Below are positions 3,164 through 57,036 of a stretch of 64,000 bases of DNA, in pieces (the stretch's first letter is position 1; the number at the start of each line of letters is the position of its first letter). The DNA comes from Haloferax marisrubri (GTDB taxonomy: Archaea > Halobacteriota > Halobacteria > Halobacteriales > Haloferacaceae): positions 62,001-126,000 of the forward strand of contig NZ_LOPW02000004.1 of assembly GCF_001469875.2 (NCBI RefSeq), given 5' to 3'. The notes beneath the pieces were generated by a model, which saw nothing but the letters and a program-made list of their open reading frames with translations, ran no database searches and was not told the DNA's origin. The position numbers and the translations under genes were made by a program.

Positions 3164-4102
3164 TTACTGCTCGTCGACGTAGGTGAACCACTCTTCGTGG
3201 TCGTCGGTGCGGCGCTCCACGAGGTCGAAGAAGGCGGACTGGAGTTCCTCCGTGACCGGGCCGCGGGTGCCCTCGCCGATGACGACGTTGTCGACCTTGC
3301 GGATGGGAGTCACTTCGGCGGCGCTGCCGGTGAAGAACAGCTCGTCGGCCGTGTTGAGTTCGCCGCGACTGATGGTCGCGCTGTCGTCGACCTCGTAGCC
3401 GCGCTCGCGGGCGAGCGTGATGACGGTGTCGCGGGTGATGCCGTCGAGGATGCTCTGGGAGAGACCGGGGGTGTAAATCTTCCCGTCGCGGACCATGAAG
3501 ATGTTCTCGCCGGGACCCTCGGCGACGTTGCCCTCCTTGTTCAGGACGATGGCTTCGACGTAGCCGTTGCGGCGGGCTTCCTCGCCCGCGAGCATGGAGT
3601 TCACGTAGAGTCCGGTCGTCTTCGCGTTCGTCGGAATCTGGCTGGAGGCGTGCTTGCGCCACGACGAGACCATCACGTCGACGCCGTTTTCGAGGGCGTC
3701 CTCGCCGAGGTAGGTTCCCCACGGCCACGCCGCGATAGCGACCTCGGTCGGGTTGTCCTTGGGGCTGACGCCGAGCGAGTCGTAGCCGTAGAACGCGATG
3801 GGACGGATGTAGCCGCCGTCGAGGTCGTTGCGCCGGATGACTTCCAGCGTCGCCTCGGTGAGTTCCTCGCGCGTGTAGGGAATCTCCATGTCGTAGGGCT
3901 TCGCGGACTGATAGAGCCGTTCGAGGTGCTCCTCCCAGCGGAAGATAGCCGGGCCGCGGTCGGTGTCGTAGGCGCGAACCCCCTCGAAGACGCCCGTCCC
4001 GTAGTGGAGACCGTGGGTGAGGACGTGCACCGTCGCGTCCTCCCAGTCCTTGTACTCTCCACTCTGCCAGATCGTCGAGACATCCATCTCTTCAAATCCC
4101 AT
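3164..4102 (-). CDS. ilvE: Branched-chain amino acid aminotransferase
   Basis: A 312-residue fold-type IV PLP enzyme that interconverts Leu, Ile and Val with their 2-oxo acids using glutamate/2-oxoglutarate. Diagnostic segments are LHYGTGVFEGVRAY (32-45), the PLP-lysine region NAKTTGLYVNSMLAG (K161 by alignment to E. coli IlvE K159) and the phosphate-binding EGPGENIF (195-202). Length is typical. The start at 4102 is followed by the normal early motif IWQSGEYKDWEDA. It lies between two plus-strand genes and appears monocistronic. Confidence 0.94.
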   Translation of the reverse strand: MGFEEMDVSTIWQSGEYKDWEDATVHVLTHGLHYGTGVFEGVRAYDTDRGPAIFRWEEHLERLYQSAKPYDMEIPYTREELTEATLEVIRRNDLDGGYIRPIAFYGYDSLGVSPKDNPTEVAIAAWPWGTYLGEDALENGVDVMVSSWRKHASSQIPTNAKTTGLYVNSMLAGEEARRNGYVEAIVLNKEGNVAEGPGENIFMVRDGKIYTPGLSQSILDGITRDTVITLARERGYEVDDSATISRGELNTADELFFTGSAAEVTPIRKVDNVVIGEGTRGPVTEELQSAFFDLVERRTDDHEEWFTYVDEQ

Positions 4103-4192
4103 GTAGTGGCCTTCGGCGGCCCCCCTCTAAAATCATGACGACCCGACCACCGCGTCCCCGGCGGTTTTGTCCGCGGGCCGCCATGACGGGGT

Positions 4193-5083
4193 ATGAGCCT
4201 CGAATCCGTCGCGGTCACGGGCGGGACCGGAAACCTCGGCCCGACCGTCGTCGCCCACCTCCGCGCGAGCGGCTACACCGTCACGAATCTCTCGCGGCAC
4301 AGCGAGTCGTCGCTCGCGGACCACGACTACCGCGTGAGCGCGCTCGACCCGGGCGACCTCACCGCGGCGCTCAGCGATGTCGACGCCGACGCAGTCGTCC
4401 ACCTCGGAACCATCTCGACGCCGACGAACGACCCCGGCCACCGCGTCTTCGAGAGCAACGTCCAATCGACCTACGTCGTCCTCGAAGTCGCCGCCGCGCT
4501 CGGCATCGACCGCGTGGTCGTCGCCTCCAGCATGAGCGCCATCGGCGGAAGCTTCGAACCCGACCCCGCTCGAATCGACTTCCTCCCGGTGGACGAGACC
4601 CACCGCGCGACGCCCTCGAACCCCTACGGCCTCGGGAAGTACGTCGCCGAGCAGACCGCCGCGGGGTTCGTCCGCCGCGACGACGCCCCGGAGACGGTCG
4701 CCAGCCTCCGGTTCCCGTGGATGCCGAGCGAGGAGGAGGCGAGACAAACGTTCGCCGAGGCCGACCGCTCGCTGTCGGGACTGCGGGACGCCGGGCACTT
4801 CCACACCGCGCGCAACACGCTCTTTTCGTACCTCGGCAGAGAGGACGCCGCGAGGCTCGTCCGCCGGGCGCTCGAAGCCGACTTCGGGGGGCACGAGGTG
4901 TTCTGGGCCGCGGCCGCCGACACCTCGACGACCGTCGAGTCAGCGACAGTCGCCCGCGAGGTCTACCCCGGCGCGGAGACCAGAGGGTCGCTTTCGGGCC
5001 ACGAAGCGCTCGTCTCGACCGAGAAGGCGGAGCGGCTGCTCGGGTGGGAGCCGACGTGGTCGTGGCGCGACGGGCGCGCGTGA
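4193..5083 (+). CDS. NAD(P)-dependent epimerase/dehydratase (extended SDR)
   Basis: 296 residues. The N-terminal Rossmann nucleotide-binding loop reads TGGTGNLG (G10xxG13xxG16). The catalytic pair of extended SDRs is present as Y145 and K149 in NPYGLGKY, with a Ser-rich strand ASSMSAIGG (111-119) supplying the catalytic Ser/Thr. The nucleotide-sugar epimerase-like architecture is clear but the substrate cannot be read from sequence. No sugar-pathway genes are adjacent. It starts about 90 bp from the divergent ilvE start, so the two promoters share a short region. Confidence 0.85.
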   Translation: MSLESVAVTGGTGNLGPTVVAHLRASGYTVTNLSRHSESSLADHDYRVSALDPGDLTAALSDVDADAVVHLGTISTPTNDPGHRVFESNVQSTYVVLEVAAALGIDRVVVASSMSAIGGSFEPDPARIDFLPVDETHRATPSNPYGLGKYVAEQTAAGFVRRDDAPETVASLRFPWMPSEEEARQTFAEADRSLSGLRDAGHFHTARNTLFSYLGREDAARLVRRALEADFGGHEVFWAAAADTSTTVESATVAREVYPGAETRGSLSGHEALVSTEKAERLLGWEPTWSWRDGRA

Positions 5084-5114
5084 GAAGGTAAATCGGGGCG
5101 ACCGACTCGGTCGC

Positions 5115-5804
5115 TCAGACGAGTTCGTCGATGAGGCCGTCGCCGTCGACGAAGGCGAAGCCGTGTCGGTCGGCGTAGTCGCGGGCGGCGTCCTTCGAGA
5201 GGGCCGCGCCGGTCTCGTCGTCGAGCATCTCGCAGACGACGACCGCGGGCGGGATACCAGCCTCGTCGGCCAAGGCGAGGCCGAGTTCGGTGTGGCCCTG
5301 CCGGTCCGAAAGCAGGTCCGGCGCGCCGCGGAGCAGGTGGACGTGGCCGGGCGCGCGGAACTCGCCGCCGAAGTCGTCGGCGTCGTACTCGCCGGCACGG
5401 GTGGCCTCGGCGACGGGCGCGAGCCGAGAGATGGTCATCGCGCGGTCGCGGTCGGTGATGCCCGTGAAGGAGTCGCGGTGGTTCACCGTGAAAGAGAACG
5501 ACGACCGCGAGTCGTACGCGAGGTCGTGAGACGACGCGGCCGGGTGGTCGAGCACGTCGTCCATGAACGGGAGGCCGAGGGACTCGGACACGTCGTTCGG
5601 GAGGGCGACGCAGACGAGACCGCCGGCGTCGTTGCGCATCCGGGCCACGTCGGCGGAGCCGACCGCGCCCGCGGGGTAGACGAGGTCGGTCTCGCCCTCG
5701 CGGTCGTCGAAGTCGTGGATGAGCACCGGTTCGCCGGCGCGGAAGGCGTCGAGAACGCGTGAGACGGCGTCGAAGTCGCCGGCCGACTCGGCAGTTCGGC
5801 TCAT
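5115..5804 (-). CDS. ribB: 3,4-dihydroxy-2-butanone-4-phosphate synthase RibB
   Basis: A 229-residue enzyme converting ribulose 5-phosphate to formate and L-3,4-dihydroxy-2-butanone 4-phosphate, the four-carbon donor of the riboflavin ring. The acidic metal/substrate loop is visible at the N-terminus ([13 protein letters not shown], 30-42), followed by the conserved [20 protein letters not shown] block and the late motif [17 protein letters not shown]. Its ATG overlaps the stop of the upstream rbkR gene by four bases (ATGA), which implies translational coupling. It is therefore placed under the control of the regulator/kinase encoded by its neighbour. Confidence 0.94.
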
Positions 5805-50484: not shown

Positions 50485-51012
50485 TCAATCTGCCTTCGCC
50501 TCGAACGCCGTCGGGTCGAGCGGGCAGTCGCCGCCGACGGTCGCGTCGATGTCGGTGGGCGAGCGGAGCGTCAACAGCGCGTACTCGCTCGGCACCCGAG
50601 CCTCGTGGCCGACGCCGATGGCTTTGACGAGTGCCTCACCGGAGCGGATGCGCGCTGGCAGGGTCGAATCGACGAGGCCGGCGCGCGAGAAGGCGTTCCG
50701 CTCCTCGCAAGCGTCGAGAAAGGAGCGCCGCCAGCGCGGGTCGCCCGCGAGTTCGTCGAGTTTGGCCACGTCGTCGCCGTCGAACCGCGATTTGAGTTCG
50801 AGGAGGAGCAGGTGACCGTCGCGGTAGGCGATGATATCGACCTTCTTCGAGCCCTTACTCCCCTTTTTGACCTTGTCGGGGTGTTTGGCCTCGATGCGCG
50901 GCAGGCCGTCGGACCCGCCGGGCGGCTCGCCGCCGACGAGCGTCCACCCGCGACCGCGGAGGAACCGCTTGCTGTACACGTAAATCTCCGGCTCGGAGAG
51001 TCGGTCGGGCAT
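50485..51012 (-). CDS. Putative PD-(D/E)XK-type nuclease-like protein
   Basis: 175 residues. The central segment KVDIIAYRDGHLLLLELKSR has the D-x(n)-ELKS pattern of the PD-(D/E)XK fold. It is preceded by a basic region (HPDKVKKGSKGSKK) and followed by a helix with CEERN. The N-terminal MPDRLSEPEIYVYSKRFLRG has no clear family. I read it as a small restriction-like or repair nuclease because of its neighbours, but the catalytic set is not complete by eye and a non-nuclease role is possible. Confidence 0.55.
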   Translation of the reverse strand: MPDRLSEPEIYVYSKRFLRGRGWTLVGGEPPGGSDGLPRIEAKHPDKVKKGSKGSKKVDIIAYRDGHLLLLELKSRFDGDDVAKLDELAGDPRWRRSFLDACEERNAFSRAGLVDSTLPARIRSGEALVKAIGVGHEARVPSEYALLTLRSPTDIDATVGGDCPLDPTAFEAKAD

Positions 51013-51056
51013 GTCGTCGGAGTCGCGGGAGATTCACCTTACGTCTACCGTTTCGG

Positions 51057-51110
51057 TGCGGCGGGTGCGGCGGGTTCGGCGGGTTCAGCGGGGGCAGCGG
51101 GTTCACAGGT
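51057..51110. repeat. 9-bp minisatellite
   Basis: Six 9-bp units: TGCGGCGGG twice, TTCGGCGGG, TTCAGCGGG, GGCAGCGGG and a decayed TTCACAGGT. It occupies the 157-bp gap between the two putative nuclease genes, where no coding pattern is seen. Confidence 0.75.
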
Positions 51111-51169
51111 GCGCCGAGTGCGGCAGGTGCCGCGGACGGATGGGCCCGAGGGCGAGCACAACGGCGGGG

Positions 51170-52144
51170 TTACAGCGCGGAGAAGTCGGAGATGACGCCG
51201 TCTTTGAGCGCGAACGCCTCGGCGGTGGCGTACCACTGCGAACTCTTCCGCGAGGGGTCGTTGGGGTTCTTCTCGGTCCACGTCTCGCGGGTGACTTTCG
51301 GGACGTTGATGACGAGGTTGCGGTGCTTCTCGGAGGGGTCGGGACCCTCGCGGCACCAGCCGTAGTCGTAGACGAACTGCATCCCGGCGTAGGGGTCCTC
51401 GCGGCGGCAGTTCTCGGGCGACATCCCGACCTTGTAGACCAGCGTCTCGTCGCGGTCGAAGAACTTCTCGGGGAGGTCGACCGACCCGCGTTCGTCCTCC
51501 CACTCGGCGACGACGGCCTCGGTGTCGCGTATCTTCACGCTCCGCGGGAGCGACTCGTACTTCGGGTGGCCGTCGACGCTCCGGTCGTAGCCCCACTGCA
51601 TCTCCGATTTGACCTCCTCGGCGACCGACATGCCCTCGACCTCGAAGCCGTTGTCGATGAACTCCGTCACGAACCGCGAGAGCAGTTCGTCCTCGGTGCC
51701 GTCGTTGACGAGTTCGCCGTCGTCGTCACAGGGCCAGTTGACGCTCCAGAACGGCGCGTCGTGGATGCGAGAGACCTCCCACATCGCCGTGAAGTACCGG
51801 GCGTTGGCGTAGCAGAGCCCCGCGTGGGTGCCGTGTTTCATCGCCAGGTACGGGAAGAACATGATAGAGGGCACGTCGTGTTCGGCCGCGCGGACCATCC
51901 GACCGAACCGCTGGCCCATGTTGTGTCCCGACGGGACCTCACCGCTCTTTTCGACGACGAGTACCGGCTCCTCGTCGACGGCGACGATGATGTCCGGGCG
52001 GTCGTACGCGAGGAGTTCCTCGATGTAGTCCGGAAGCGACCCGCTCATAATTCGGTGGTCGACTTCGAGCAGGCGGTCGTCCAACCCCTTGAACCAGAGC
52101 GCCTCGACTTCCTCGTCGGAGAAGATTTCCAGCGTCGAATCCAT
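51170..52144 (-). CDS. Putative restriction endonuclease-like protein
   Basis: 324 residues, starting MDSTLEIFSDEEVEALWFKG. An early segment, DRPDIIVAVDEEPVLVVEKS (69-88), has a PD...E-K-like pattern as in restriction enzymes, though the last motif reads EKS, not ExK. The rest is rich in aromatic and acidic residues (FFPYLAMKHGTHAGLCYAN, QFVYDYGWCREGPD) with no family I know. An AACTATACC box A about 30 bp upstream fits a leaderless transcript. It follows the methyltransferase gene on the same strand, so it is the natural candidate for the restriction partner. Confidence 0.6.
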   Translation of the reverse strand: MDSTLEIFSDEEVEALWFKGLDDRLLEVDHRIMSGSLPDYIEELLAYDRPDIIVAVDEEPVLVVEKSGEVPSGHNMGQRFGRMVRAAEHDVPSIMFFPYLAMKHGTHAGLCYANARYFTAMWEVSRIHDAPFWSVNWPCDDDGELVNDGTEDELLSRFVTEFIDNGFEVEGMSVAEEVKSEMQWGYDRSVDGHPKYESLPRSVKIRDTEAVVAEWEDERGSVDLPEKFFDRDETLVYKVGMSPENCRREDPYAGMQFVYDYGWCREGPDPSEKHRNLVINVPKVTRETWTEKNPNDPSRKSSQWYATAEAFALKDGVISDFSAL

Positions 52145-52306: not shown

Positions 52307-54166
52307 TCAGTCCAGCGCCGCGGTGAGTTCACACACCGGGCAGGTGCCGCAGGCAGGGTCGGCGTCGCACCCCGACGCGGCGAAGTCGAAGAGCGAGCGC
52401 GTGAACGCCGTGTGGTCCTCGACCGGCAGGAGCGACTCGGCGAGGTCCCAGAGGTAGTCGTCCGCGGCCGGGTCGTCGCCGACTTCGAGGTCGAACACGC
52501 GCGCGAGCAGTCGAGCGACCGCGTCGTCGACGAACGGGCGACGCCGGCCGTAGCCGAAACAGAGCGTCGCGTTCGCCACCGCTCGGTCGACGTGCGGGAG
52601 GTCGAGCAGGTCGGCCTCGGTGTCGGGGACGCCGGAGAACACGAGTTGGCTCGTGATATCGCGGAGTTCCTTGGCGCGCTCGTCCGCGTCGCCGAGGGGC
52701 GAAAGCAGGTCCGCCACCTCCGCCTTCCCCGCCGAACTCAGCGCGCTCAGGTCGGGATACCGCTCGACGAACGCCCGATAGACGGGGGCCACCGTCTCGG
52801 CGTCGCTCCCCCGGTGAAGCAGGTGGCCGACGAACGCCTCGTAGGGCGAGACGTCCGGTGCGCGCCACGGGGGCGCGTCCGCGGCCGTCGACGACCCGGA
52901 CGCGGACGGTTCCCAGTCGCGGACGCGCTCGACGAGGGCTTTCGTCCGCATGCTCCGTTTGAGTGCCTCGCCGAGGTGCTGACCCAGTATCGGTGGCACC
53001 GCCATCCCGGTCTGAACGCGACCTTGGACGGTTCCGCCCTCGAAGACGTAATCGTCGGGGAACGACTGAATCCGCGCCCGCTCGCGGACGGTCAGTCCCC
53101 GACCCTGCTCGTAGTGGCCGTACTGGAACTGCGGGCGGATGCCGCCGGCGATAATCGTCGGCCCGGGGTCGTCAGGGTGGAGGCGAATACGCTGACGGAA
53201 CCGGTCGTACATCGGCTCGCCCGGTTCGGTCCCCTCGACGCGGTCGACGGTCGTCTGCCGGTGGTTCGGCGCGTCGTGGTTCGGCAGGCACCCGTTCGAT
53301 TCCCCGTCGACCGCCGTCTCGCGCATCAGTCGCTCGTAGTCCGAAAGCGAGGCGTCGGCGGGGTACTCGGTCGCCGACTCGCCGGGACCGAGCGGCGGGA
53401 GGTCGGACAGCGCCTCGGAGACGGAGACGTGGTTCTCCTCGTGGGTCGGCTTCGGCCAGACGACCGGGTGGTCGTCCTTCGCGCCGACGAAGAACAGCCG
53501 CTGGCGCTTCTGCGGGACGCCGAAGTCGGCGGCATTCAGCACGCGGTAGTCGACGCGGTAGCCGAGTCGCTCCAGACACTCGACGACTGCGTCGACGAAC
53601 TCGCCGTCCTTGGCGGCCTTCATCGTCGAGACGTTCTCGATGAGGACGAACGTCGGGTCGAGAATCTTCGCCGCCCTGATGAACTCCTCGAACAGGTAGT
53701 TGCGCTCGTCTTCGTCGTGCTGTTTCCGGTTGGCGATGGAAAAGCCCTGACAGGGGATGCCGCCGGTCAGGACCGACAGTCCCTCGTCACCGAGCGCCTC
53801 GTCGGCGACCGATTCGAGGAGCGTCCCCTCGACGACATCGTCGTCGTCGATGACGTCGAAGATGTCCCGCGAGTCGCCGTCGCGCTTGTTGACGCGGCGG
53901 ATGTCGCCCAGAATCGCGTGGGCGTGGCGGTGGTTGCGCTGGAACGTCTCGACCGACGGCTCGTGGATGTCGACGCCGAGGACCGTTCGGAAGCCCGCCT
54001 GTTCGAGGCCCTGCGAGATGCCGCCGGGGCCGCAGAACAGGTCGATGACCGTCGGAGCGTCGTCGTCGGGTGCGCGCTCCGACTGGGGCGGGCGGTGTTC
54101 CGGCTCACCGGCCCAGTTGTGCCGGTTCTCCTCGATGTCGGAGTCGGTGTCCCACGCGTCAGACAT
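52307..54166 (-). CDS. DNA (cytosine-5) methyltransferase fused to an HhH-GPD/4-Cys domain
   Basis: 619 residues. The first 410 form a complete C5-methyltransferase: SAM loop DLFCGPGG (42-49), catalytic C139 in GGIPCQGFS, ENV (177-179), QKRQRLFFVG (219-228), and the late motif RVQTGMAVPP (383-392). After a linker (about 412-435), residues 436-619 look like an endonuclease III/MutY-type glycosylase: hairpin LPHVDRAVANATLCFGYG (523-540), the aspartate D547 in PFVDDAV, and C600, C606, C609, C612 for an Fe-S loop. The lysine position of EndoIII is Ala529 here. I infer m5C methylation with attached repair of its deamination product. Confidence 0.8.
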   Translation of the reverse strand: MSDAWDTDSDIEENRHNWAGEPEHRPPQSERAPDDDAPTVIDLFCGPGGISQGLEQAGFRTVLGVDIHEPSVETFQRNHRHAHAILGDIRRVNKRDGDSRDIFDVIDDDDVVEGTLLESVADEALGDEGLSVLTGGIPCQGFSIANRKQHDEDERNYLFEEFIRAAKILDPTFVLIENVSTMKAAKDGEFVDAVVECLERLGYRVDYRVLNAADFGVPQKRQRLFFVGAKDDHPVVWPKPTHEENHVSVSEALSDLPPLGPGESATEYPADASLSDYERLMRETAVDGESNGCLPNHDAPNHRQTTVDRVEGTEPGEPMYDRFRQRIRLHPDDPGPTIIAGGIRPQFQYGHYEQGRGLTVRERARIQSFPDDYVFEGGTVQGRVQTGMAVPPILGQHLGEALKRSMRTKALVERVRDWEPSASGSSTAADAPPWRAPDVSPYEAFVGHLLHRGSDAETVAPVYRAFVERYPDLSALSSAGKAEVADLLSPLGDADERAKELRDITSQLVFSGVPDTEADLLDLPHVDRAVANATLCFGYGRRRPFVDDAVARLLARVFDLEVGDDPAADDYLWDLAESLLPVEDHTAFTRSLFDFAASGCDADPACGTCPVCELTAALD

Positions 54167-54591: not shown

Positions 54592-56202
54592 CTACGCCGC
54601 GAATTCGGCCTCGGTGACCGCGATTCGGGCGGTTGCGTTTCTGTCGGCCTCGCTCTGTTCGGTCTCGTTCGTCCGCTGGATGACGTAGCGCTGGCCGACC
54701 ATCGGGTCCAGGAGGCTGTCGACTGGGGCGCGGTCGTCGGTGAGAAGCGGCACGTCATCGGTGGGTTCGTCGTTCCGGTAGGACGTGAGTTCGGCCGCGA
54801 GGTCGATGCCGATGTCGCGGCGCTGATTGCGCGCCTGTAGCTCCTCGGCCGTCACGAGCGTGTCGTCTTTCGTCGCCACGACCTCGATGTTCTGGACGAC
54901 GACGCTCCCCGCGGTGGGGAAGCTATACACCTGCGGGTAGACCGACCGCATCGTTTTGTACTCCGCGCGGTAGAACTGCGAGGCCGGGCCGCTCGGCGCG
55001 GAGATGACGTTGGCGAACAAGATTCCGTCCTCGTCGAGGCGGTCCGAGGTGAGCTGCATGAACTCCTGTGTCGTCAGTTGGAACGGGACCTTGTCCTTCC
55101 GGTAGGCGTCGAGGACGATGAGGTCGTACGTTTGGTTCGTCTCCCTGAGGTACTGCCGGCCGTCCATCGTGTGGACGTTGAGCCGGGGCGACTCCTCGAC
55201 GCCGAAGTACTCCTCGGCGACGGAGACGACCTCGGGGTCGAGTTCGACCACGTCGACGGTCACGTTCGGATACTGCTCCAAGAACACGCGCGGGCCGGTG
55301 AATCCGCCGCCGCCGACGAACAGCACCCGGTCGATGTCGTCGGACAGGAGGAAGGGGACGTGGAAGTACGAGGTGTAGTCGAAGACGTGGCGCGTCGGGT
55401 CGTCGAGGTCCATCGCGCTGTGGGGTTGGCCGTCGAGGTAGAGCGTCCGCGTCCCGCCCGCGTCGGCGACGCGAAGCTCCTGATAGGCGGTCTGCGTGTG
55501 GTACACCGTGGTGCCGCGGGAGTCGAGACCGACGCCGCCGGTCAGCGACGCGAGGACGAGGACGGCGGCGATGCCGACGCTCCAGACCGCCTCGTCGCGG
55601 CCGATGTTCGGCCGGGCGAGCGCGAGCGCGGTCGCCACCGAGATGAGGCCGAAGACGAGTCCGATGTTGGTGACGCTCAGCGAGGGGATGAGGAAGTACG
55701 TGGTGGCGAACGCGCCGATGATACTGCCGACGGTTCCGACGGCGTAGACGTGGCCCGAGGCCGCGCCCACGTCGGACCGGCCGGAGAGTTCGGCCGCGTA
55801 GGGGCTGATGAAGCCGAGGAAGTAGGTCGGCGGGCCGAACAGGAGCGTAATCGCCGGAAGCGATGCGAACCGGCTCGGGAGGGGGAGCCCGGCGGTCGAC
55901 TGGATGAACAAATCCCCGACGAGGATGACGCCGGCGATGTAGGCGGCCGTGCCGACGAAGACGCGGACGAGCGCGCTGTTCGACGCCTCCGTGGCCCGCT
56001 GGCCGCCGTGGTGGTAGCCGAGACTCAGCGCCGCGAGGAAGACGCCGATGATGCTCCCCCACGTGTAGATGCTGCTGCCAAACTCGGGGGCGACCATGCG
56101 ACCGGCCAGAATCTCCAAGCCCATGCTCGTGATTCCGGAGACGAACACGGCGAGTTCGGGCCGCGTCATCCGAAGCCACGAGCCGGAGGCCGTCGATGCC
56201 AT
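54592..56202 (-). CDS. Fused MFS-type membrane domain and spermidine synthase-like domain
   Basis: 536 residues. Seven or so N-terminal membrane helices (about 12-235; VSGITSMGLEILAGRMVAPE, FLGFISPYAAELSGRSDVG) are followed by a spermidine-synthase-like methyltransferase-fold domain: VLFVGGGGFTGPRVFLEQYP, VDVVELDPEVVSVAEEYFG, MDGRQYLRETN and DLIVLDAYRKDKVPFQLTT. The fused family is widespread; whether it makes polyamines is unproven. The C-terminus is extended by about 50 residues and ends TEAEFAA. The start at 56202 is the first ATG. Confidence 0.88.
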   Translation of the reverse strand: MASTASGSWLRMTRPELAVFVSGITSMGLEILAGRMVAPEFGSSIYTWGSIIGVFLAALSLGYHHGGQRATEASNSALVRVFVGTAAYIAGVILVGDLFIQSTAGLPLPSRFASLPAITLLFGPPTYFLGFISPYAAELSGRSDVGAASGHVYAVGTVGSIIGAFATTYFLIPSLSVTNIGLVFGLISVATALALARPNIGRDEAVWSVGIAAVLVLASLTGGVGLDSRGTTVYHTQTAYQELRVADAGGTRTLYLDGQPHSAMDLDDPTRHVFDYTSYFHVPFLLSDDIDRVLFVGGGGFTGPRVFLEQYPNVTVDVVELDPEVVSVAEEYFGVEESPRLNVHTMDGRQYLRETNQTYDLIVLDAYRKDKVPFQLTTQEFMQLTSDRLDEDGILFANVISAPSGPASQFYRAEYKTMRSVYPQVYSFPTAGSVVVQNIEVVATKDDTLVTAEELQARNQRRDIGIDLAAELTSYRNDEPTDDVPLLTDDRAPVDSLLDPMVGQRYVIQRTNETEQSEADRNATARIAVTEAEFAA

Positions 56203-56346
56203 GTCAGTAAGCCAAGGGACGCGGCCGTATTAATTCACGCACGGCGGCGAACCAGACGACGCGAACGCGGTCGCGGTGCGGAACCCGCCGCCTCCGCGAC
56301 CCGCTCGCGCGAACCTTCTTATCTGATGACGGAGCCAACCCGTCCC

Positions 56347-57036
56347 ATGTCCTCCCTCGTCGCCGCGTCCGACCTCGCCCGCGCCGCCTACTGCCCGCGA
56401 CAACTCTACTACGCCCGCCGCGACGACGACCGAGCGCCGCCGCCCGCGGTCCGCGAGATTCGCGCGCTCGCCTTCGAGTATCCCGCCCTGCTCGACGGGG
56501 CTGACGACGCGCTCGCGGCCCAGCCGATTTCGGTGTCGCCGACGGCGTACCGCGAGAACCTCGCTCGACTCCGCGAGCGCGGCGACTGGGACGCGCTCAC
56601 CGACCCAGTCGCCCGTGACGTACTCCTCGCGGGGAAAGACTGCCGCGGCGTCGCGCACAAACTCGTGCGGTCGCCCGCCGACGGCGACGAGGACGACCGA
56701 CCGCCGGTTCCATCACTCGTCTCGCCGGGCGAACCGCCCGACCGCGGCGTCTGGGAACCCCAGCGCGTCAGGGCCGTCGCGCTGGCGAAGGCGCTCGCGT
56801 GGGAGCGCGAAACGCCGATACCGCGGGCACTAGTCGAGTACCCGGCGGTCGGCGTCGTCCGGACGGTGGGGCTCACGACCGGGAACAAGGCGGCGTACCG
56901 GCGGGCGCTCCGCGTCGCCCGCGACCTCGATTTCGTCCCGTCGCGGCTCCGCGACTCCGCGAAGTGCGAGTCGTGCGCCTACCGGGAGCGCTGCGGCGTG
57001 AAAACGTGGTCGCTGTCGTCGCTACTCGGTCGGTGA
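56347..57036 (+). CDS. Stand-alone Cas4-like protein with degenerate nuclease core
   Basis: 229 residues. The Fe-S cysteines of the Cas4/AddB-like fold are all present: C16 in YCPRQLYYARR and C207/C210/C216 at the C-terminus (KCESCAYRERCG). The nuclease core, however, has no clear D...ExK: the middle reads PSLVSPGEPPDRGVWEPQRV. No CRISPR array or other cas gene lies in the window. I infer a stand-alone Cas4-like protein, possibly non-catalytic. The start at 56347 fits a TTCTTATC box about 28 bp upstream; an ATG at 56326 is an alternative. Confidence 0.75.
   Translation: MSSLVAASDLARAAYCPRQLYYARRDDDRAPPPAVREIRALAFEYPALLDGADDALAAQPISVSPTAYRENLARLRERGDWDALTDPVARDVLLAGKDCRGVAHKLVRSPADGDEDDRPPVPSLVSPGEPPDRGVWEPQRVRAVALAKALAWERETPIPRALVEYPAVGVVRTVGLTTGNKAAYRRALRVARDLDFVPSRLRDSAKCESCAYRERCGVKTWSLSSLLGR

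Follow-up and report, generated by a model that had tools for sequence, protein, structure and literature searches.

A haloarchaeal C5-cytosine DNA methyltransferase fused to a Mig/MutY-type glycosylase domain with a degraded active site

A single open reading frame in a 64,000-nucleotide stretch of Haloferax marisrubri DNA (the window; source genome 3.9 Mb in 26 contigs) joins a C5-cytosine DNA methyltransferase to a complete MutY/Mig-type HhH-GPD domain whose active site is degraded. The reading favored here, which we consider probable, is that a T/G glycosylase was fused to the methyltransferase, lost catalysis, and would now be a non-catalytic module in a restriction-modification-like operon. 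Deamination of 5-methylcytosine mutates DNA, and the repair enzymes that counter it, Mig and Vsr, are separate proteins kept beside the methyltransferase. Mig-type T/G glycosylases, which remove the thymine left by such deamination, are usually encoded by a separate gene accompanying C5-methyltransferases. The pairing is known; what is new is its appearance as a single-protein fusion with a degraded active site.

52307-54166, minus strand: fusion ORF of 619 aa, C5-methyltransferase joined to HhH-GPD (ORF call, Pfam, NCBIfam, relatives)
52952-54055, minus strand: C5-cytosine methyltransferase domain, residues 38-405 (motifs I, IV with C139, VI, VIII and X intact)
54113-54136, minus strand: N-terminal motif IEENRHNW, residues 11-18 (alignment of four fusions)
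52310-52870, minus strand: MutY/Mig-type HhH-GPD domain, residues 433-619, predicted non-catalytic (profiles, phmmer, residues, model)

The ORF is present where a preliminary description made from the letters alone had placed it, on the minus strand, a detail absent from that account. The methyltransferase half has the full set of catalytic motifs (I, IV PCQ, VI ENV, VIII QxRxR and X), and these, with the catalytic cysteine, fall at the residues given earlier (DLFCGPGG at 42, PCQ at 138 with C139, ENV at 177, QKRQR at 219, AVPP at 389). Pfam DNA_methylase matches residues 39-403 (E=1.4e-65, profile positions 2-323 of 324), NCBIfam TIGR00675 matches above its cut-off, and the nearest solved structures are DNMT1 and M.HaeIII. 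Judged by sequence, the window protein is a C5-cytosine DNA methyltransferase, with formation of 5-methylcytosine predicted. The motif IEENRHNW is identical in all four fusions identified (see below).

The C-terminal 190 or so residues are a complete MutY/Mig-type HhH-GPD domain, a conclusion on which profiles, sequence matches and a structural model agree. The HhH-GPD profile matches residues 456-560 above the Pfam gathering score (E=5e-7, or 7e-8 when the C-terminal part alone is the query), and the NCBIfam mutY profile spans residues 433-616 (E=3.3e-27), although its score of 96 bits is far short of the equivalog cut-off of 286. With the C-terminal part as phmmer query against the PDB, E. 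coli MutY (8e-19) and Mig (1kea; 9e-17) were matched more strongly than EndoIII. An AlphaFold2 model (pLDDT 86.5, pTM 0.84) has MutY and Mig as its top Foldseek matches (TM 0.81-0.82; 0.82 for Mig 1kea), a result biased towards the MutY fold because MutY relatives, taken from viral contigs and a single Legionellaceae genome, were aligned with the window sequence as input; the sequence matches do not depend on the model. Profile and structure comparison thus bear out the earlier placement in the EndoIII/MutY superfamily. Membership of EndoIII itself was ruled out, as the lysine is missing and the MutY/Mig match is far better.

The fusion architecture is real and rare. The same fusion, in a single open frame without internal stops, was found in three further genomes of the family, with 66% (G099), 60% (G038), and 68% and 56% identity (G087, in two pieces with an insertion) to that of the window, so that four of the 170 genomes searched in the family, across four genera, encode it. 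Because the same uninterrupted frame recurs in three other genomes, the fusion is not a product of chance, sequencing error or frameshift; the earlier claim of one gene instead of two was borne out. No other fusion was found among 393 archaeal genomes drawn across the phylum or in two more families (of 146 and 125 genomes), and none on the plasmids, phages or viral contigs searched. A BLAST match on the Thermus plasmid pTthSNM7-6d suggested a fusion; the plasmid actually carries two overlapping ORFs. The open-access literature searched, a part of all published work, yielded no published description of the fusion.

52823-52825, minus strand: His448 codon, at the position of the MutY/Mig catalytic Glu (E37/E42; alignment)
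52580-52588, minus strand: Asp527-Arg528-Ala529 codons, Asp527 at hairpin Gly118 and Ala529 at the Ser120/Tyr126/Lys120 position (alignment)
52526-52528, minus strand: Asp547 codon, equivalent to catalytic Asp138/144, kept in four of four fusions (alignment)
52331-52369, minus strand: four-Cys segment C600-x5-C606-x2-C609-x2-C612, whose final spacing misfits the EndoIII/MutY pattern (alignment)

Key evidence for loss of catalysis comes from an active-site survey, numbered by E. coli MutY, of the four fusions and 30 separate Mig-like proteins. Among the latter, Glu37 is present in 29 of 29 (one protein ends early), and Gly118, Tyr120, Asp138, Asn140, Asp186 and the four cysteines are each present in all 30. 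Position 45 is Ala in 28 of 30 and position 182 is Leu in 18 of 30, as in Mig itself, which has A50 and L187 there (PMC2714593), and this fits T/G specificity. At the six positions from Glu37 to Asp186 the window domain has His448, Asp527, Ala529, Asp547, Ala549 and Asp594, so that Ala549 stands for Asn140 and Asp594 for Asp186. The same positions read Gln, Glu, Tyr, Asp, Asn and Asp in the G099 fusion; Glu, Asp, Ala, Asp, Asn and Glu in G038; and Glu, Thr, Ala, Asp, Arg and Ala in G087. The hairpin glycine is gone from every fusion, the catalytic Glu is retained in two of the four, and none has Glu and Tyr together. The preliminary description had recognized the broken hairpin, the alanine at the EndoIII lysine position (Ala529, where Mig needs Tyr126) and D547 in the catalytic-aspartate position, each of which held up.

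Its four-cysteine loop fared less evenly: C600, C606, C609 and C612 are where they were reported, but the spacing is not that of EndoIII/MutY. The [4Fe-4S] loop of Mig/MutY glycosylases has the form C-x6-C-x2-C-x5-C and separate relatives have C-x5/6-C-x2-C-x5-C, and the final cysteine of the window domain is three residues too near (C609-x2-C612). The cysteines are regular in G099 and G087, and three of the four are lost in G038. Cysteine loss by itself is not informative, since clusterless MutY structures such as 8uuc have been solved.

In Mig, the Y126S change abolishes T/G activity (PMC2714593), and in GsMutY the E43Q and E43S changes impair activity severely while leaving it measurable (PMC12871665). 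With Glu, Tyr and Asn all replaced, the window protein is most likely not a T/G glycosylase, although His448 might act as an acid/base. Because the GsMutY mutants are still measurably active, weak activity is conceivable for the G099 fusion, the least degraded of the four, which has Gln for Glu and keeps Tyr and four intact cysteines.

That the protein is bifunctional, its C-terminal domain an active monofunctional T/G glycosylase clearing the thymines that 5-methylcytosine deamination leaves where the enzyme itself methylates, is quite unlikely. The fold match to Mig, the catalytic Asp kept in all four fusions with Glu in two, the residual activity of GsMutY E43Q, and the separate Mig-like genes that adjoin C5-methyltransferases all favor an active enzyme; the replacements of Glu, Tyr and Asn in the window, the loss of the hairpin glycine and of the Glu-Tyr combination throughout, and a constraint looser than that on separate glycosylases speak against it. 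The earlier proposal of a single polypeptide that both methylates and repairs is consequently probably wrong, and of the two options offered with it, a monofunctional glycosylase or a non-catalytic DNA-reading module, the second fits better, His448, Ala529 and Ala549 having been missed as replacements of Glu, Tyr and Asn. A re-tooled pocket, in which His448 and Arg590 (for Glu37 and Gln182/Leu187) excise or read another base, as in a restriction glycosylase or a sensor of 5mC or T:G, is highly improbable. Asp547 is kept, position 182 is Arg in three of the four fusions, and base-excising restriction enzymes exist (PMC10273834); the replacements nevertheless differ among the four, as decay predicts and unlike one new active site, and modification and restriction would already be supplied by the methyltransferase and two nuclease candidates.

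Separate glycosylases, roughly 210-250 aa long and sharing 34-41% identity with the fused domain, occur in many haloarchaea, most of them near a C5-methyltransferase gene. This, with the Thermus plasmids, upholds the link to a Mig gene beside a methyltransferase drawn in the preliminary description. On pTthSNM7-6d of Thermus thermophilus (L071) the methyltransferase ORF (3846-5096) overlaps the glycosylase ORF (5035-5712), and on three other Thermus plasmids the two genes overlap by 29 bases; in Caldicellulosiruptor pCALKR01 the pair is divergent and accompanied by a PLD restriction enzyme. The Thermus glycosylase ORF (L071:5035-5712) does not appear in the gene table of PLSDB, a table with known gaps. 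In four haloarchaeal loci (L039:4120-7186, L040:1955-7605, L056:2439-6577 and L046:3674-8685) a Mig-like gene lies between two different C5-methyltransferase genes, as one might expect if the recognition site were asymmetric.

A tree of the methyltransferases unites the four fusions in a single clade (100/99) and places the pTthSNM7-6d enzyme as its sister (100/100), with unfused haloarchaeal enzymes next outward (94/96); the separate glycosylase beside that sister has an intact active site. A related methyltransferase in G740 has neither a glycosylase nor gene 2 (see below) nearby. The glycosylase tree likewise has the fused domains as one clade (100/99), within a haloarchaeal Mig-like group (97/92). 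The fused domain may have been inherited with the methyltransferase or acquired from a haloarchaeal Mig gene, both origins being possible because of the long branch leading to the Thermus glycosylase. The source genome has MutY-like and EndoIII-like proteins as well, separate from the fusion and with their catalytic residues retained.

The closest parallels are two-gene cassettes of haloarchaea and Thermus plasmids (L039, L043, L071, L074 and others), whose parts are homologous to those of the fusion and stand in the same order, but they are two genes, which on the Thermus plasmids overlap, and the glycosylase active site is intact. On a Methanothermobacter plasmid, the gene for the T/G mismatch glycosylase Mig.MthI (PDB 1kea) adjoins that for a GGCC methyltransferase. 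This glycosylase resembles the window domain in fold, family, C5-methyltransferase neighbor and catalytic Asp. The window domain differs in being covalently fused, in having His and Ala where Mig, a separate protein, has Glu42 and Tyr126, in the Asp that replaces the hairpin glycine, and in a fourth cysteine that does not fit. MutY shares the HhH-GPD and four-Cys layout and gives the top sequence and fold matches, whereas the fused domain is without the C-terminal MutT-like domain and the catalytic Glu and is joined to a methyltransferase. In E. coli, dcm and vsr are overlapping genes, and Vsr repairs the T:G by-product of Dcm. There, too, a C5-methyltransferase is genetically coupled to a T:G repair enzyme, but Vsr is an active endonuclease of another fold and a separate protein. 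A partnership of methylation and repair would here have become one protein whose repair half then lost its active site, giving a natural series from a separate, active partner to a fused, catalytically degraded domain. Such a series lets one test the role of the repair fold without catalysis, and how the cell handles T:G at methylated sites.

Rates of change differ between the two contexts. The ratio of divergence of the fused domain to that of its own methyltransferase, as -ln(identity), is 2.0-3.7 (median 2.5, six pairs), as against 1.0-1.8 (median 1.4, 38 pairs) for separate glycosylases; the ranges do not overlap, and because pairs share lineages the figures are descriptive and carry no significance test. 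By Nei-Gojobori, the fused domain has a dN/dS of 0.20-0.48 and the methyltransferase one of 0.09-0.33, dS being almost saturated, and the linker between the domains is about 20% identical among the fusions. On these comparisons the fused domain is under purifying selection, looser than in separate glycosylases, and the four-fusion pattern reads as catalytic decay with looser constraint.

A decaying remnant, dead weight with no current role and heading for loss, would fit a fast-diverging domain with different active-site losses in each species, three cysteines gone in G038 and a poorly conserved linker; set against it are the dN/dS values, the confidently predicted intact fold, and full length and frame preserved in four species of four genera, and it is rather unlikely. 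Purifying selection, together with length and frame kept in four genera, speaks for a role in structure or in binding and against dead weight. Under the preferred reading, the ancestor of the C-terminal domain would have been a Mig-type T/G mismatch glycosylase that presumably stopped excising bases after fusion and may have been retained as a non-catalytic module that binds DNA or contacts the product of gene 2 or gene 3. With key active-site residues lost, the tail most likely helps the enzyme to hold DNA or partners instead of repairing. That only four fusions are known, from one family, and that all keep Asp547, counts against the preferred reading. A more specific version, of which we are doubtful, has the pseudo-glycosylase recruited as a permanent methyltransferase domain that holds or bends DNA, or that senses sites carrying methylation or mismatches and leaves them uncut, thereby controlling methylation or coupling to the nucleases of the operon.

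51170-52144, minus strand: gene 2 of the operon, 324 aa, candidate nuclease (PD-x13-E-x-S/T; weak PADLOC REase_II match)
50485-51012, minus strand: gene 3 of the operon, 175 aa, small PD-(D/E)xK-type nuclease candidate (invariant D59, E72 and K74; weak Hjc matches)

Genes 2 and 3 follow the fusion on the same strand, in identical order after all four fusions. Neither has a strong family match in the databases searched. Gene 2 matches the PADLOC profile for type II nicking endonucleases (REase_II) weakly (E=7e-4, and 8e-7 in the G038 relative); its invariant residues are PD-x13-E-x-S/T, then GxNxxQR, and its single-sequence structure prediction is of low confidence (pLDDT 35). It occurs in eight of 391 genomes, always beside these methyltransferases (the four fusions and the unfused enzymes of G372, G219, G319 and G353), and gene 3 is linked in all eight. 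In the four unfused systems genes 2 and 3 are divergent from the methyltransferase, and no glycosylase lies nearby in stretches of 10-18 kb. Gene 2 therefore looks like a partner of this methyltransferase subclade and a candidate nuclease, and the fusion with genes 2 and 3 would make up a restriction-modification-like operon, in which cleavage is predicted.

Genes 2 and 3 of G038 and G087 (L035:9096-10748 and L036:5688-7374) belong to another lineage, about 30% identical to those of the window (50485-52144), although the methyltransferases are about 70% identical; gene 2 of the window is nearer to that of the unfused systems (42-43% identity). The nuclease half thus seems to have been exchanged, or to be evolving much faster than the methyltransferase. 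Elsewhere in the window, an ORF at 56206-57036 (plus strand) has a C-terminal Cys motif and a weak Cas4/RecB-like match (PF01930, E=0.008, below the gathering score), and one of 536 aa at 54592-56202 (minus strand) has apparent membrane segments in its first half and is spermidine-synthase-like in its second (PF01564, E=1e-13).
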